Assembly (NCBI GenBank): GCA_021826835.1
Contig: JAKAYH010000194.1
Location: 1-5,337, forward strand
Length of the DNA stretch: 5,337 bases
From: Thermoplasmata archaeon
GTDB taxonomy: Archaea > Thermoplasmatota > Thermoplasmata > Thermoplasmatales > Thermoplasmataceae
Direction of reading: 5' to 3'
This document shows positions 191-5,337 of this stretch, piece after piece. The notes beneath the pieces are model-generated. The model had not been told where the DNA came from, made no database searches, and was given only the letters and a program-made list of their open reading frames with translations. The translations under genes were made by a program, and so were the position numbers. Numbering within the stretch: the first letter of the stretch is position 1; each line of letters opens with the position of its first letter.

Positions 191-529
191 TTAGACACAG
201 AAGCTACATGTTGATTTGCATATATTGATTTGAAATTTATTTGCTCAGTAAATAGATCCGGGATTTTCTAAAAAAAATAGGTCTTCTTCCCTGTCAATTT
301 CATTGTTCCTTGACTTGTCTATGTAATATAAAACTCATCTTATTAAGTATGGTTCCTGATGATACTCTTTGTTAATCCACTTCGAAAGTGCACCTTCCAT
401 TTCGTTTACCCTTTCGTCTGAATTTGTGCTTCCACGTAATTCTTCTTTGACTAGTGTCTTGAATTTATATGATTGTTTTAATTCATATACATAAACAAAT
501 CCTAATTCATCCCCTGCAAAGGTTATCAA
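191..529 (-). pseudogene. Decayed or TGA-interrupted small gene of unknown function
   Basis: A TTG at 529 opens a 64-codon frame that reads like real protein (ITFAGDELGFVYVYELKQ near its start, ALSKWINKEYHQEPYLIR at its end) and stops at a TGA at 335-337. The same frame continues for 29 more protein-like codons (VLYYIDKSRNNEIDREED, then LFFLENPGSIY) to a second TGA at 245-247. A further 17 codons containing CKSTCSFC lead to a TAA at 191-193. Coding-like sequence on both sides of the first TGA in one frame suggests a gene broken by a point mutation such as CGA to TGA. There is no ATG near the start, and the frame is closed upstream by a TAA at 552-554. A TATA-like element lies about 27 bases upstream of the TTG. 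Selenocysteine readthrough is possible in principle, but I saw no supporting structure. The family is not recognised. Confidence 0.4.
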
Positions 530-1429: not shown

Positions 1430-1576
1430 ATGGATCGATGCAAATGTTCAAAATATCCAAAGGAAACAACGATAAGTCTGACCGAGAAGGGAAGGGAGAT
1501 TGGATTAAAGTTAAGGGAAGTCGAAAAGATGATGAAAAATGAATTGGAAGACGACAATGAAAGTAATGAAGACTAG
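1430..1576 (+). CDS. Small 48-residue protein, winged-helix-like tail
   Basis: The protein starts MDRCKCSKYP, has the core TISLTEKGREIGLKLREVEK, and ends in an acidic tail (EDDNESNED). The core closely resembles the wing strand and final helix of archaeal winged-helix DNA-binding domains, where 'LTEKGREI..KL.EIE' is common. The usual preceding helix-turn-helix is absent and the N-terminus carries a C-x-C pair (C4, C6) instead. It may be a free-standing mini-regulator, a partner of the SWIM-finger protein 21 bases upstream, or the tail of a broken wHTH gene. The GGTGAT ribosome site 5 bases before the ATG argues that it is translated. Function is otherwise unknown. Confidence 0.55.
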   Translation: MDRCKCSKYPKETTISLTEKGREIGLKLREVEKMMKNELEDDNESNED

Positions 1577-1672: not shown

Positions 1673-2455
1673 ATGAATGGAAGTAATAACCCTAGCATGA
1701 CTTGTCACAATTGTAATGAAAACCCTTTACCTATTTTAAAGTTTATAGATAACTCTTTAACTAACTACAGGACATATAATGTCTTAATAGGGTGCTCACG
1801 CGGCCATCTAACTCCTTTTGTTATAAAATCTAGCAATACAGGAAAAGTATTGATAGAGCATGATAAGTCAATATTAGGAAGAATATCTAGCTTCGAGAAA
1901 AAATTTAAAGACATTATAAGTAATTTTAAAAAGGTGGAAGACCTTCAAGACACCTATTCCGACATTATAAATTCGATTATTTCTAAAGATAAAACTGGAT
2001 CAATAATTCATATCCGATATTTTATGGAGGTACATCAAAAACTTAGATTATTCAATTTATTAAATTACCCTGAAAGTGATGAAACGGAAGAGATGTGGGC
2101 GGAAGTTAAGGGTTCCCCTTTATATAGTTTTTTTTCCGAAGAAAAAAAGAAAGAATCAAAGTTATCTTTCGAAAAAATGGTTGATTCTAGTAAAAAAATT
2201 ATAAACGTGAATAAAAATAATATAGAAATATTAAAAAACATATATAACTCATTATCAGAACAGCTACATTATTTCAAGAGAGATAAGAATAAGTATAAGA
2301 CACTAGCTAAAAAGGAATGGGCAATAAGTGATGTTATATCAAAATTTGAAGAATTTCTAGAAATAGCTAAAAATATTGAGGACTCATATCTTATCAGTGA
2401 AGGAGAAAGCGAATCAGAAATAGAGAACGAGATGGAAAGAGGTGAAAACGAATGA
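1673..2455 (+). CDS. Zinc-finger/coiled-coil protein, partner of the GHKL ATPase (unknown function)
   Basis: I do not recognise this 260-residue protein. Near the N-terminus, C11-x2-C14 (TCHNC) and C41-x3-H45 (GCSRGH) could form one C2-CH zinc site, with a hydrophobic, β-like stretch between them. From about residue 70 to the end it is mostly predicted helix, rich in Lys, Glu, Ile and Asn, with coiled-coil-like stretches near 70-100 and 150-240. A strongly acidic tail (SEGESESEIENEMERGE) ends it. There is no signal peptide or membrane segment, so it should be cytoplasmic. Its stop overlaps the ATPase start (ATGA), so the two are translationally coupled and probably act together. A sensor or adaptor for the ATPase is an inference from context. 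Codon use is very A+T-rich, like the ATPase gene and unlike the SWIM-finger gene. Confidence 0.75.
   Translation: MNGSNNPSMTCHNCNENPLPILKFIDNSLTNYRTYNVLIGCSRGHLTPFVIKSSNTGKVLIEHDKSILGRISSFEKKFKDIISNFKKVEDLQDTYSDIINSIISKDKTGSIIHIRYFMEVHQKLRLFNLLNYPESDETEEMWAEVKGSPLYSFFSEEKKKESKLSFEKMVDSSKKIINVNKNNIEILKNIYNSLSEQLHYFKRDKNKYKTLAKKEWAISDVISKFEEFLEIAKNIEDSYLISEGESESEIENEMERGENE
2438..2445 (+). promoter_or_regulatory. Strong Shine-Dalgarno site inside the upstream gene
   Basis: AGAGGTGA lies 6 bases before the ATG at 2452, within the last codons of the zinc-finger/coiled-coil gene. With the ATGA overlap it fixes the ATPase start and indicates coupled, independently efficient initiation. Confidence 0.6.
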
Positions 2456-4392
2456 ATAATAGTAATTTTTTGGAAAATATTGCTTTAAGATTATCTCCAA
2501 AGGTTTTGCAGCATATTTCCTCAAATATTTATAGGCAACCTGCAAGCGCATTTAAGGAACTTGCATCTAATGCTTTTGATGCGAGTGCTACTAATTTTGA
2601 AATTAAATTTAAAATTAAATTCTTGGATAAAAAGATCAATGAAGACGAAGAACTTGCAGAGTTGGATAGTATAGAGATTACGGATGATGGAGAAGGAATT
2701 TCCTACGAGGATTTTCAATCTATCTTTACCAATATTGGTTATAGTAGAAAGGTTAAAGATTTGTCATACGATTCTCAGGACGCACTTAATAAAACTATCA
2801 AATCAAGACCAATAATAGGAAGGATAGGGATCGGTTTATTTAGTGTCGTTGCTGCAAGTGATGAATTCGAGATTGAATCAAAGAAAAAAAATGACAAATG
2901 TTATATCGCTAAAACCAAGATACCTGACTTTGCTAGACTCAATGTTACAAATATTGACCTTGAATCATTTCAAACTGGCGAAGCATTAATATATGAGAAA
3001 AATGATAGTGAGGAAAAAAAAGAGTCTTACACAAAGATTACACTAAGAAATTTCAAAAAACCATTCATGGAAGAAATAATGGGGAATTTTTCGAAATCTC
3101 AAATTTATCCAATGGCATTGGAAAATAAGTATAGATCTGTACATTCAGTACAAGAAAAGGAGTTTGAGGAATATTTAGAAAAAATTGTAAAGAGTAAAGA
3201 GAAGATAGAAGATTTGGATGGGAACATAGACCAATTCATTTTTAATCTAGCTTTACAACTGCCAATTGAATACCTTCCTAATGGTCCTTTTAAGGAGTGC
3301 GTTAAAATATTCGGATCCGATGAAGATAAAAACCCAGAGAGGATAATAGAGGAGATCAAAGAAAGATTGACCTCATACAAATTTAATGTGTTTTTCTCCA
3401 TGGAGTTCGTGAATCGTAGAATTAATCCCTATAAAATTAAACTATTCAAACCAATATCATTACCCTCTCAAAGAGATTTAGACCAGTTTGGCTCAGGAAA
3501 ACTAGATCCTAGAGCTTTTATATATAAAAAAGAAGATAAAATAAAGAACGAAATAGACGACGAAGTAGATATTGAAATTTCGATGTATGCTTATCGGCAA
3601 GCAAAGAGGATAGTTCCACACGAACTGAGAGGTATATTATTTAGGGTTTACGATGTTGCTGTAGGAGATTACGACTATGAAAAATTAAGGCCATATAACA
3701 CTTCTGCTTTGCAATTTCAAACATCATATGAAATATTTATGAACAAAGGGTTCCAATCTGCAGTAAATGTAGATAGGGAGAGTTTGTATGAAGCATCCTA
3801 CTCTTATAGATATCTGAAAAGGTACTTTGACTACATTTTAGGAAAGATGGACGAAGAAGACGAGGATAGTGATAGAACCAGGGATTATTTTACAGAATTT
3901 TTAACCTATTCGGAAGAATCAACTAATGATAGTAGTCCTAATAACGCCCAAAAAAGTGGCACTTCCAATACTTCAAATCTGATAGAGGGGTCTTTCAATG
4001 AAAAATTAGATAAAGAGTTCAGTCGGAAAAATCCTAAGCCTCTAATTAAAACTTTAAATGAACTAAGATTGAAAAACACCGTTGAGAGAAAAAAACAGAG
4101 AGTTCAAAAACAAAAAAATAACCCCATTCTTAGACGAGTGAGAGAAGAATACGACATAAACCTAGAGACCATAGAAAACATTGAAATAGAGGAATCAAAA
4201 AATCTATCAGAAATAGAAAAGACTGAATCTGGTATAGCTGTTAAAACTAAATTCAAACCGGATAAACTTTCTAAATTGCCATTCATTGATGCGGTGTTGC
4301 TTGCGCACCTCGAACTCAAAGGAGAGGAAAGAGCAAGATTCTTATCTTTGCTAGAAGAGTTGTACAAATTTTATAAAGAAAAAGAACCATAA
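2452..4392 (+). CDS. GHKL (Hsp90/MORC-like) ATPase
   Basis: A 646-residue soluble protein. Its N-terminal ATPase domain shows all the main GHKL (Bergerat) motifs. The N box is KELASNAFDA, with catalytic-type Glu36 and Mg-binding-type Asn40. The G1 box is TDDGEGI (D78-x-G80-x-G82), and the G2 box is GRIGIGLFSV (from G123). A later SYTKITL strand (192-198) fits the G3/Thr position. Residues 310-465 look like the S5-like transducer domain of Hsp90-like ATPases, with RGILFRVYDVAVG (393-405) and VNVDRESL (438-445). Residues 466-510 are an acidic, Ser/Asn-rich linker. The C-terminus (511-646) is charged and helical, ending in a Leu-rich helix that may mediate dimerisation. GHKL proteins are known to close as ATP-dependent clamps or chaperones, and relatives recur in prokaryotic defence loci. 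A client and a defence role are inferred, not seen. It is coupled to the preceding gene and its 3' end overlaps the convergent DndC-like gene. Confidence 0.88.
   Translation: MNNSNFLENIALRLSPKVLQHISSNIYRQPASAFKELASNAFDASATNFEIKFKIKFLDKKINEDEELAELDSIEITDDGEGISYEDFQSIFTNIGYSRKVKDLSYDSQDALNKTIKSRPIIGRIGIGLFSVVAASDEFEIESKKKNDKCYIAKTKIPDFARLNVTNIDLESFQTGEALIYEKNDSEEKKESYTKITLRNFKKPFMEEIMGNFSKSQIYPMALENKYRSVHSVQEKEFEEYLEKIVKSKEKIEDLDGNIDQFIFNLALQLPIEYLPNGPFKECVKIFGSDEDKNPERIIEEIKERLTSYKFNVFFSMEFVNRRINPYKIKLFKPISLPSQRDLDQFGSGKLDPRAFIYKKEDKIKNEIDDEVDIEISMYAYRQAKRIVPHELRGILFRVYDVAVGDYDYEKLRPYNTSALQFQTSYEIFMNKGFQSAVNVDRESLYEASYSYRYLKRYFDYILGKMDEEDEDSDRTRDYFTEFLTYSEESTNDSSPNNAQKSGTSNTSNLIEGSFNEKLDKEFSRKNPKPLIKTLNELRLKNTVERKKQRVQKQKNNPILRRVREEYDINLETIENIEIEESKNLSEIEKTESGIAVKTKFKPDKLSKLPFIDAVLLAHLELKGEERARFLSLLEELYKFYKEKEP
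4371..4392. other. 22-base tail-to-tail overlap of convergent genes
   Basis: The ATPase stop TAA is at 4390-4392, and the minus-strand DndC-like stop is at 4371-4373. The last codons of each gene are therefore shared. No room is left for an intergenic terminator, so the two transcripts must be complementary at their 3' ends unless expressed at different times. Confidence 0.85.
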
Positions 4393-5337
4393 TCATGATA
4401 TTTATGGTCTTCAAGCAACTTTTCAATAGCTCCAATTTCATTTTCCGTAATTAGTTTTGTTTTAATTTCTTTCTCTAAGTCAATAATCTTAGATAATATT
4501 TCCTTCCTAAACCCAACTCTTAGTCTTCCCTTTCTCCCATCCTTCCTGAAATACCTGTTCTCAGGCTTTTTGCATTCTTCAACTATCCATTCTCTGAATT
4601 CAAGAAGTTTTTGAACTTTATAATCCCCGGATTTGGCCAGTGCAATCATGGTTTTATCTTTCATTACGACAGTGCACATCCAGCATCCAAATCTCATTGA
4701 AGTGTTTCCATATAGATCAACAACAAGCTGTGTTTCTTGTATTGCTTTTTTACCGGGGAACATCAAAAAATACCATACATCCTCAGCCGTCCAGTGAATA
4801 ATTGGAGCTGCTACATCTATTCCTTTCTGGTTCACCCATACATCACTGCCACATTCATTTGCCCCTCCATCTAAGCATGAACTTTTAAGTCGTATATCTC
4901 TCTGTTGGCTTTCCCCAATCCTCAATCCAGTTATAAAGAGTCCATTGTCTTCGTGGAGTTTCCTTGAGGGCTTGATCTTAATTTTTGGGGTGCACCACCT
5001 GAATCTTGGCCCTGGAGGGGGATAACCTCTGCCGATCATCCTGACCCAGTAGGTGTCATTTATATCAGGATAAACGATCTTCACTTCGGCAGGATACTTC
5101 TTCTCTATTGACTTTAAGAATGTATAAGCAACTACTGACATTTGTGGTATTTCCATCATAGTGTCTGAATAGGTAATGTTCAGATCAATATCAGGGTGGA
5201 CTGTTTTCATATACAATGATAGAACCACAAGGGCAGTGCTATCCTTTCCTCCAGAATAGGTTACAATCCATCTTTTGTTCTTTTTGTAAAGTTGTTCTAA
5301 AATATTTATGCTTTCCTGGAATTTTTCTTTAAAAGTA
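4371..5337 (-). CDS. DndC-like PP-loop sulfurtransferase / PAPS-reductase family (N-terminus off the window)
   Basis: The frame is open from the stop at 4371 to the right edge, giving 321 visible residues; the true start lies outside. The GTG at 5228 cannot be the start because it falls after the PP-loop TYSGGKDSTAL, encoded at about 5226-5258. That loop (SGGKDS, 5238-5255) binds ATP and activates the substrate as an adenylate. Further DndC-family marks are YSDTMMEIP, IGRGYPPP…FRWCT…KIKP, HWTAEDVW and RFGCWMCTVVMKDKTM. In the known Dnd pathway, DndC is an Fe-S protein that supports insertion of sulfur into the DNA backbone. Here the cysteines usually found just before FGCWxC seem replaced (ETQLVVDLYGNTS). 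Instead C154 and C162 (visible numbering; SSCLDGGANECG) could join C218 and C221 at an Fe-S cluster. The C-terminus after that is basic and helical, and the protein seems shorter than typical DndC. Thus the family is clear, but DNA phosphorothioation is not assured. Confidence 0.85.
   Translation of the reverse strand, partial: TFKEKFQESINILEQLYKKNKRWIVTYSGGKDSTALVVLSLYMKTVHPDIDLNITYSDTMMEIPQMSVVAYTFLKSIEKKYPAEVKIVYPDINDTYWVRMIGRGYPPPGPRFRWCTPKIKIKPSRKLHEDNGLFITGLRIGESQQRDIRLKSSCLDGGANECGSDVWVNQKGIDVAAPIIHWTAEDVWYFLMFPGKKAIQETQLVVDLYGNTSMRFGCWMCTVVMKDKTMIALAKSGDYKVQKLLEFREWIVEECKKPENRYFRKDGRKGRLRVGFRKEILSKIIDLEKEIKTKLITENEIGAIEKLLEDHKYHDYGSFSL

Follow-up and report, generated by a model that had tools for sequence, protein, structure and literature searches.

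The window analysed here is the whole of a 5,337-nucleotide (nt) stretch, positions 1 to 5,337 of contig JAKAYH010000194.1 from a Thermoplasmata archaeon (GCA_021826835.1). It holds five open reading frames (ORFs) of interest, and three of these, encoding a zinc-site protein (hereafter the partner), a GHKL ATPase and a DndC-like protein, very likely constitute a conserved three-gene module. Together, the three genes are probably an undescribed DNA-sulfur or defence system. The start of each ORF was chosen mechanically, and the features of the three genes are as follows:

1673..2455, + strand: partner, a zinc-site protein of 260 amino acids that may end in a divergent DUF4145/HEPN-like domain (sequence and profile comparison)
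1703..1807, + strand: zinc site of the partner, C11-x2-C14 ... C41-x3-H45
2015..2269, + strand: partner stretch with the codons of R115, E119 and H199, invariant in 9/9 rows in each of two partner alignments
2438..2455, + strand: Shine-Dalgarno-like AGAGGTGA and ATGA start/stop overlap
2452..4392, + strand: GHKL ATPase with an S5/transducer-type second domain, 646 amino acids
2557..2571, + strand: GHKL N box, E36...N40
2683..2697, + strand: GHKL G1 box, D78-x-G-x-G82
2818..2835, + strand: GHKL G2 box, G123...G128
4371..5337, − strand: convergent gene for a DndC-like PP-loop ATP pyrophosphatase; 321 amino acids lie inside the window, at whose end the frame is open
5235..5255, − strand: PP-loop SGGKDST of the DndC-like protein
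4674..4994, − strand: five invariant cysteine (Cys) codons of the DndC-like fragment (residues 115, 154, 162, 218 and 221)

The partner and ATPase genes overlap through the ATGA, with AGAGGTGA ahead of the overlap, and from this arrangement the two are predicted to be co-translated, in agreement with an earlier note that had read the two proteins as made together. That note had drawn them as a candidate two-gene undescribed module. The conservation and the apparent novelty of the module stood up to analysis, but its drawing as a pair is rejected as incomplete, the DndC-like gene being a constant third member.

Eight loci were compared: the window, L001 (genome G001), L002/L027 and L007 (both G002), L003 (G003), L024 (G347), L025 (G172) and L026 (G254). 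Three come from Thermoplasmata metagenome-assembled genomes, by a search of contigs, and four more from whole-genome searches, which returned G002 again and other genomes of the class. A partner-type ORF lies directly upstream of the ATPase gene in 7/7 testable loci (it is cut in L003), and so the adjacency on which the earlier note had staked its proposal holds. Together with an HSP90-family score far below its cut-off (see below), this supports a conserved undescribed module. Downstream of the ATPase gene, convergent and tail-to-tail, all seven testable loci carry a DndC-like gene, which the note had seen next door in the window; L002, whose contig ends 65 bp past the ATPase gene, is outside this count, and the contig of L007 carries the C-terminus of the DndC-like protein only. 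The ends of the two genes overlap by 22, 4, 4 and 101 nt or are separated by 2, 17 and 86 nt. As the zinc-site protein and the ATPase stand tail-to-tail with a DndC relative wherever this can be checked, the three are probably one system.

When 400 genomes of the class were searched with the ATPase profile, 5 were positive. The DndC-like search of the same genomes gave eight positives, of which four were strong (E <= 1e-68) and all adjoined this ATPase, and four were weaker (E 1e-31 to 4e-28) and not beside this ATPase family; the fifth ATPase-positive genome, G002, was below the DndC cut-off because its contig carries only a 76-amino-acid DndC end. A broader ATPase profile found the same loci again in 367 class genomes, and in two orders the ATPase was present in 2/106 and 4/117 genomes, with no loci beyond the known ones (the 106-, 117- and 367-genome samples overlap). 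Among 389 genomes of the phylum, the DndC-like search returned G001 and G172 at E <= 1e-45.

The N, G1 and G2 ATP-binding motifs are invariant in 22/22 ATPase sequences, Pfam assigns the window ATPase to HATPase_c_3 with 46.5 bits (cut-off 25), and the second domain is of the S5/transducer type; the intact boxes and S5-like domain claimed earlier are thus present. NCBIfam and PADLOC gave weak N-terminal matches to BbrUII-type restriction enzymes, HSP90 and MutL, the nearest curated model being BbrUII/HgiDII (NF050001, 65.1 bits against a cut-off of 550, over residues 12-206 only). A housekeeping chaperone or repair pair of the Hsp90/HtpG or MutL type would have the fold in common with this ATPase, and Hsp90 and MutL are among its top structural matches. 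Yet the ATPase reaches 32.6 of 455 bits with the HSP90-family model and 31.5 of 180 bits with the MutL model, and its spread over the class and the two orders is patchy. We therefore reject a housekeeping chaperone, which is barely credible here. Membership of the MORC family is rejected as well: the strict GhXhhpXXRhl motif in S5, a MORC criterion according to the available text of PMC2292703, was found in 0/28 sequences, with a loosened form in 12/28, one of them off site. Pfam found no nuclease signature in the C-terminal part of the ATPase, which had no match at E <= 1, or in the partner, and recognised in the ATPase no DUF4263 PD-(D/E)xK nuclease of the kind carried by GHKL-Shedu (paraMORC3).

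The partner had been called unrecognised, and Pfam, NCBIfam and PADLOC gave no credible family match for the window protein; through its distant relatives, however, it has become partly recognisable. The partners fall into three clades, namely A (the window's), B (L001, L002 and L024) and C (L025, L026, L007 and P0070-P0073), which have R115, E119 and H199 in common. In profile comparisons, clade C matched DUF4145 proteins with P values of 9e-8 and 4e-7 (probability 93-94%) and clade B weakly (P 0.005-0.008), and the clades compared with one another gave P 2.4e-4 (A-B), 7.7e-4 (B-C) and 0.8 (A-C); these P values are from single comparisons rather than database searches, with six DUF4145 proteins in the set. 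Pfam's own DUF4145 model gave 0.067 (P0073) and 0.21 (L007) at best, and the partner profile, run against PDB sequences, found no match below E 0.3. DUF4145 belongs to the HEPN superfamily according to the text available of PMC3710099, and the partner is perhaps a divergent DUF4145/HEPN-like protein. Its zinc site is C2-CH in the window, is made of four Cys in L025, L026 and L007, and is partly lost in L001, L002 and L024. By eye, the HEPN R-x4-6-H motif is present in one of seven partner loci (L001). A HEPN RNase toxin is rejected on the catalytic Arg missing from the other six, and for the same reason we read the putative HEPN-like domain as a binding or sensing part.

For the DndC-like protein, the top family matches by far are DndC and PRK06850, followed by weak CysH, TilS and TtcA matches and, for the window protein, weaker SspD and BrxP matches; NCBIfam and PADLOC name it a sub-threshold DndC. 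The DndC proteins of four other triads score 145.9-181.7 bits against TIGR03183, and a PDB sequence search with the DndC profile gave no match at E <= 0.01. According to the main text of PMC10853773, DndC has a Cys dyad that is separate from its three iron-sulfur Cys. C115, C218 and C221 are present in 20/20 compared sequences, as is, by eye, the SGGKDS loop, and these three residues presumably hold an iron-sulfur cluster. The second Cys pair, 154/162, was found in 6/6 triad sequences, 0/5 of the dndC type and 2/9 others. Among the five dndC-type rows, four have DndD/DndE adjoining and the fifth, L096, is without annotation; DndC's own second pair is missing in two of the five (L097 and L098).

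Trees placed dndCDE-type and triad DndC proteins on opposite sides of a starred branch, and a single triad DndC clade is compatible with the data but not established (approximately unbiased test, p-AU 0.27). In the first tree, of 42 rows, the long-branch rows G221 and G085 were placed next to triad rows; the tree was rebuilt by a quicker method minus eight rows (L099, L100, L033, L035, L036, L051, L038 and L039). The proteins of L099 and L100 (G221 and G085) are very divergent DndC-like proteins, with no DndD, DndE or GHKL match in the fetched neighbourhood. Three IMG/VR loci (L038-L040) encode DndC-like proteins 37% identical to the window's, with no GHKL match on the fetched stretch, and L039, their sole aligned member, has the relocated Cys pair as in the triad.

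The substrates of PP-loop enzymes include tRNA and small molecules. With the weak CysH, TilS and TtcA matches in mind, one could imagine that the DndC-like protein thiolates a target other than DNA, be it a tRNA or a nucleotide signal, and that the ATPase pair responds. The lead of DndC and PRK06850 over all other models and the retention of DndC's iron-sulfur Cys pattern speak against such a role, and we consider it improbable.

We searched the window and seven fetched loci, several on short contigs, for DndD and DndE by tblastn and found neither; as a positive control, both were recovered beside two of the four weaker DndC genes (G095 and G057), and both were absent from the fetched stretches of the other two. 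When six triad genomes were searched for the two families, DndD was over cut-off in 0/6, with weak matches in three, and DndE in 0/6. The DndE negative is weak by itself, because the DndE model recovered the gene in one of two control plasmids (the other gave an off-target weak match); it was over cut-off in 0/14 control genomes. A full Dnd system is rejected on the failure to find DndD/DndE at the triads.

Both true dndCDE loci of the class have a different GHKL ATPase nearby (HATPase_c_3 over cut-off, MzaB-like). In G095 (L097 6751-12529), dndC is closely preceded, on its own strand, by consecutive genes for a ResIII/DEAD helicase, the GHKL protein and a PLD-type protein, and in G057 (L098 10939-14407) the GHKL ORF lies downstream of dndE with one ORF between. 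These GHKL proteins score 27-32 bits against the triad ATPase profiles (G095's 27-30) and are most simply taken as a restriction arm. Their presence alongside DndD/DndE therefore favours a restriction-modification logic, in which the DndC-like protein of the triad would put a sulfur mark on host DNA, and unmarked DNA would be attacked or blocked by the GHKL ATPase together with the zinc-site partner. Several further observations are in keeping with this logic. GHKL-helicase-nuclease sets are called restriction systems in the available text of PMC2292703, and BbrUII/HgiDII is the nearest curated model of the ATPase. Of the four neighbourhoods read for plasmid homologues of the ATPase (six records matched, at 21-24% query coverage), three have a cytosine methylase next to the homologue, and convergent genes would suit separately regulated arms. 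The BbrUII match is nevertheless confined to residues 12-206, the ATPase C-terminal part and the partner lack a Pfam nuclease signature, the HEPN motif is found at one locus in seven, and the replacement for DndD/DndE is left unexplained. A site shared by marker and attacker also predicts that both vary, yet DndC is nearly constant. On balance, we regard a restriction arm as a somewhat unlikely explanation, yet as a close rival of the one favoured below.

The near constancy of DndC is best seen in the window, L001, L003 and L024. Over aligned parts, their DndC proteins are 74-85% identical (six pairs), the ATPases 33-37% (six pairs; that of L003 is partial) and the partners 19-25% (three pairs). 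Tree distances for the same six pairs are 0.21-0.46 for DndC and 2.6-4.5 for the ATPase, a ratio of 8.0-21.5, against 2.1-3.1 in nine other pairs. At the DNA level, the window and L001 match over 97 bp at 81% on the left and 804 bp at 83% on the right, with a dissimilar pair between. The 97-bp match occurs at one place in G001 and in none of five other genomes, and it belongs to a winged-helix gene that is upstream in L024 too. This gene and its neighbour are the remaining two features:

1430..1576, + strand: remnant of a winged-helix regulator gene, 48 amino acids (translation; relatives in L001 and L024)
803-1408, + strand: gene for a zinc-ribbon protein (Pfam matches below cut-off; SWIM-like by eye)

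The C-terminus preserved in the remnant also precedes the partner in L001 (86% identity over 29 amino acids), and a full relative of 171 amino acids, an HxlR-like helix-turn-helix protein, lies upstream in L024 (50% over 26 amino acids; 42% over 55 between L001 and L024). The guanine-plus-cytosine (GC) content of the window genes rises from 29% (partner) through 33% (ATPase) and 38% (DndC-like gene) to 42% in the zinc-ribbon gene that neighbours the low-GC pair. The corresponding values for partner, ATPase and DndC-like gene in L024 are 35, 35 and 40%, and the difference between ATPase and DndC-like genes is 1-4 points in L001, L003, L025 and L026. Exchange of ATPase and partner together, as a cassette swapped between strains, would be the simplest account of these comparisons, the alternative being very fast divergence of the pair.

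Discordant divergence, along with the co-translation of the pair, the DndC-like gene on the opposite strand and the variation of the remaining island genes among loci, could also mean that the pair is a defence unit by itself, as the earlier note had proposed, with the DndC-like gene as a conserved but independent island neighbour. Such independence sits poorly with a DndC-like gene in every testable locus, in the same orientation and with near-touching stops, and with strong DndC-like matches that were not found without the ATPase in the 400 class genomes, and we find it quite unlikely.

As to those island genes, L001 has among its neighbours a D12 methylase and an HsdS-like gene, L024 has SIR2 and NB-ARC/TPR genes, L026 a type I R subunit next to ORFs that by eye look HsdS/HsdM-like, and L003 a fragment whose endonuclease matches fall just below cut-off; of the three ORFs scanned in L025, one encodes a transposase and the others were without a match. 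The setting is defence-island-like, and a defence role is plausible from this context. A small protein at window positions 335-529 (− strand, 64 amino acids as seen) has relatives near the triad in L024 (11779-12072, 53% identity) and L003 (2342-2587, 42%), with 69% DNA identity to L024 over 290 nt, and may be a recurrent island gene. An Rfam scan gave zero matches at the gathering score, and promoter and terminator scans showed no excess, the promoter model being bacterial and unsuited to archaea.

Taken together, we tentatively favour the possibility that the triad is a DndC-family sulfur-modification or defence module, with the GHKL ATPase and zinc protein in the DNA-handling place of DndD/DndE or SspB/SspC. 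What the loci show is the gene set, its order, the intact motifs and the uneven divergence; DNA as substrate, the desulfurase, the task of the pair and a defence purpose are inferred. Such a module would work through the DndC-like enzyme, whose ATP-pyrophosphatase loop, three iron-sulfur Cys and Cys pair would perform the sulfur chemistry; its substrate would most likely be DNA, and its sulfur would be supplied by a cysteine desulfurase of the host. DNA handling and target recognition would fall to the ATPase and the zinc-site partner, which is perhaps DUF4145-like: ATP-driven closure of the ATPase dimer would clamp or remodel DNA, the zinc protein would read the target, and the pair would thereby occupy the place held by DndD/DndE in Dnd and by SspC/SspB in Ssp. 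Specificity for target or trigger would reside in the pair, because it can apparently be exchanged while DndC stays nearly constant. A bolder version, which we think unlikely as it stands, is that the triad represents a further chassis for DNA-backbone sulfur modification, in which a GHKL (MORC/MutL-type) clamp and a DUF4145-like zinc reader replace DndD/DndE and SspB/SspC, and specificity is changed by swapping the whole cassette beside a constant sulfurtransferase. If true, DNA sulfur modification would no longer depend on ATPases of the ABC or Orc/CDC6 type, DndC-type chemistry would gain a link to a GHKL clamp, and the near-constant DndC beside swapped pairs would serve as a natural experiment for telling which gene determines specificity.

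Several observations weigh against a DndC-family module of this kind. The case is built on eight loci, and the DndC-like gene, being on the opposite strand, is not co-transcribed with the pair. The open-ended copy in the window scores 144.8 bits against the TIGR03183 cut-off of 290.4, its second Cys pair is not at DndC's position, and in the true dndCDE loci the GHKL protein coexists with DndD/DndE rather than replacing them. Of the four window proteins scanned, none was named as a cysteine desulfurase, as DndB or as a nuclease, and the triad was found in 0/23 DndC-like viral loci. Regarding cassette exchange, the large ATPase distances are saturated, the L003 ATPase is partial and L024 is flagged as a long branch, so that fast evolution may have taken its place; the DndC DNA match also ends about 150 nt before the stop codon. 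For the partner, the window's clade matches DUF4145 with P 0.3-0.4, which makes its HEPN link an indirect one, and the Pfam DUF4145 model had no match in G001, although a clade B partner is encoded there. The structure model of the partner is poor (pLDDT, the predicted local distance difference test score, of 55), and a fold search with it gave nothing better than E 0.8, as expected at that value.

The 23 viral loci are from a second scan, the first, with an alignment that included a fragment, having found none. ATPase scans of viral sequences gave no confirmed relative and those of the phage set no match, and a virus-borne triad is rejected on this and on the 23 viral loci. A plasmid-borne triad is rejected too, the four plasmid ATPase neighbourhoods read being other settings; in six plasmid DndC-like stretches (of 187 records), one of which is without annotation, no listed gene is named as such an ATPase. 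Two IMG/VR loci (L046 2583-7494 and L041 7291-9029) have a membrane-type protein, by eye, ahead of the DndC-like gene, the two membrane-type proteins being 30% identical (E 5e-12), and in L046 a GHKL protein and a cytosine methylase-looking ORF come ahead of these genes. In two plasmid loci (L032 4470-8104 and L034 6099-8173), a DNA methylase immediately precedes a PAPS-reductase-family gene.

The association of a GHKL ATPase with DndC in a three-gene module appears to be new, as we found no description of it among the open-licence PMC papers listed and the main texts queried. GHKL, MORC and MutL are not mentioned in the main text of PMC10853773, nor GHKL and MORC in the text available of PMC12839542, nor GHKL in the main text of PMC12988326. 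DndC does not occur in the main text of PMC8011034, the main text of PMC2292703 has 0 occurrences of Dnd and PAPS, and PMC10354927 and PMC8569181 are, in their available text, silent on the association. Phosphorothioate systems already vary in the ATPase that accompanies DndC or SspD, with an ABC-type DndD plus DndE in one case and an Orc/CDC6-type SspC plus SspB in the other (main text of PMC10853773). DndACDE resembles the triad in its PP-loop sulfurtransferase with the same three Cys and in the ATPase and DNA-binding-type protein that work with DndC (same source). It differs in that the triad protein falls short of the DndC cut-off and has its second Cys pair at another place, DndD/DndE were not found, the ATPase is GHKL instead of ABC, and the gene is convergent. 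SspABCD and type-4 BREX (SspD/BrxP) likewise have a DndC relative working with a quite different ATPase (main text of PMC10853773, available text of PMC12839542), but theirs is of the Orc/CDC6 or BrxC type with SspB/DUF4007; PADLOC had no SspB/SspC or DUF4007/BrxC match in the four window proteins, to which, rather than whole genomes, this search was confined.

Among GHKL-based systems, the paraMORC proteins of restriction-modification systems, including BbrUII/HgiDII, share the GHKL plus S5-type module and a defence neighbourhood (available text of PMC2292703), whereas the triad ATPase lacks the strict MORC motif (28/28) and a recognised C-terminal nuclease and is paired with a DndC-like protein. 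The GHKL-helicase-PLD set of G095 also has a GHKL ATPase adjoining a DndC gene, in the same class, but its ATPase is MzaB-like, with 27-30 bits to the triad profiles, and DndD/DndE are present. In VcSduA, the GHKL-Shedu protein of Vibrio cholerae, mutation showed that the GHKL ATPase is needed for phage defence (PMC12137116, text available); its chain also contains a DUF4263 nuclease, unlike the triad ATPase, in which Pfam recognises none. On the partner's side, Ymh-type HEPN domains fused to paraMORC ATPases occur in restriction-modification settings (available text of PMC3710099). The DUF4145 zinc-ribbon HEPN proteins share with the partner a zinc ribbon and a domain marked by R..E together with a late His, and clade C partners match them at P about 1e-7, whereas the window partner is too diverged for a direct match and the catalytic Arg is mostly missing.

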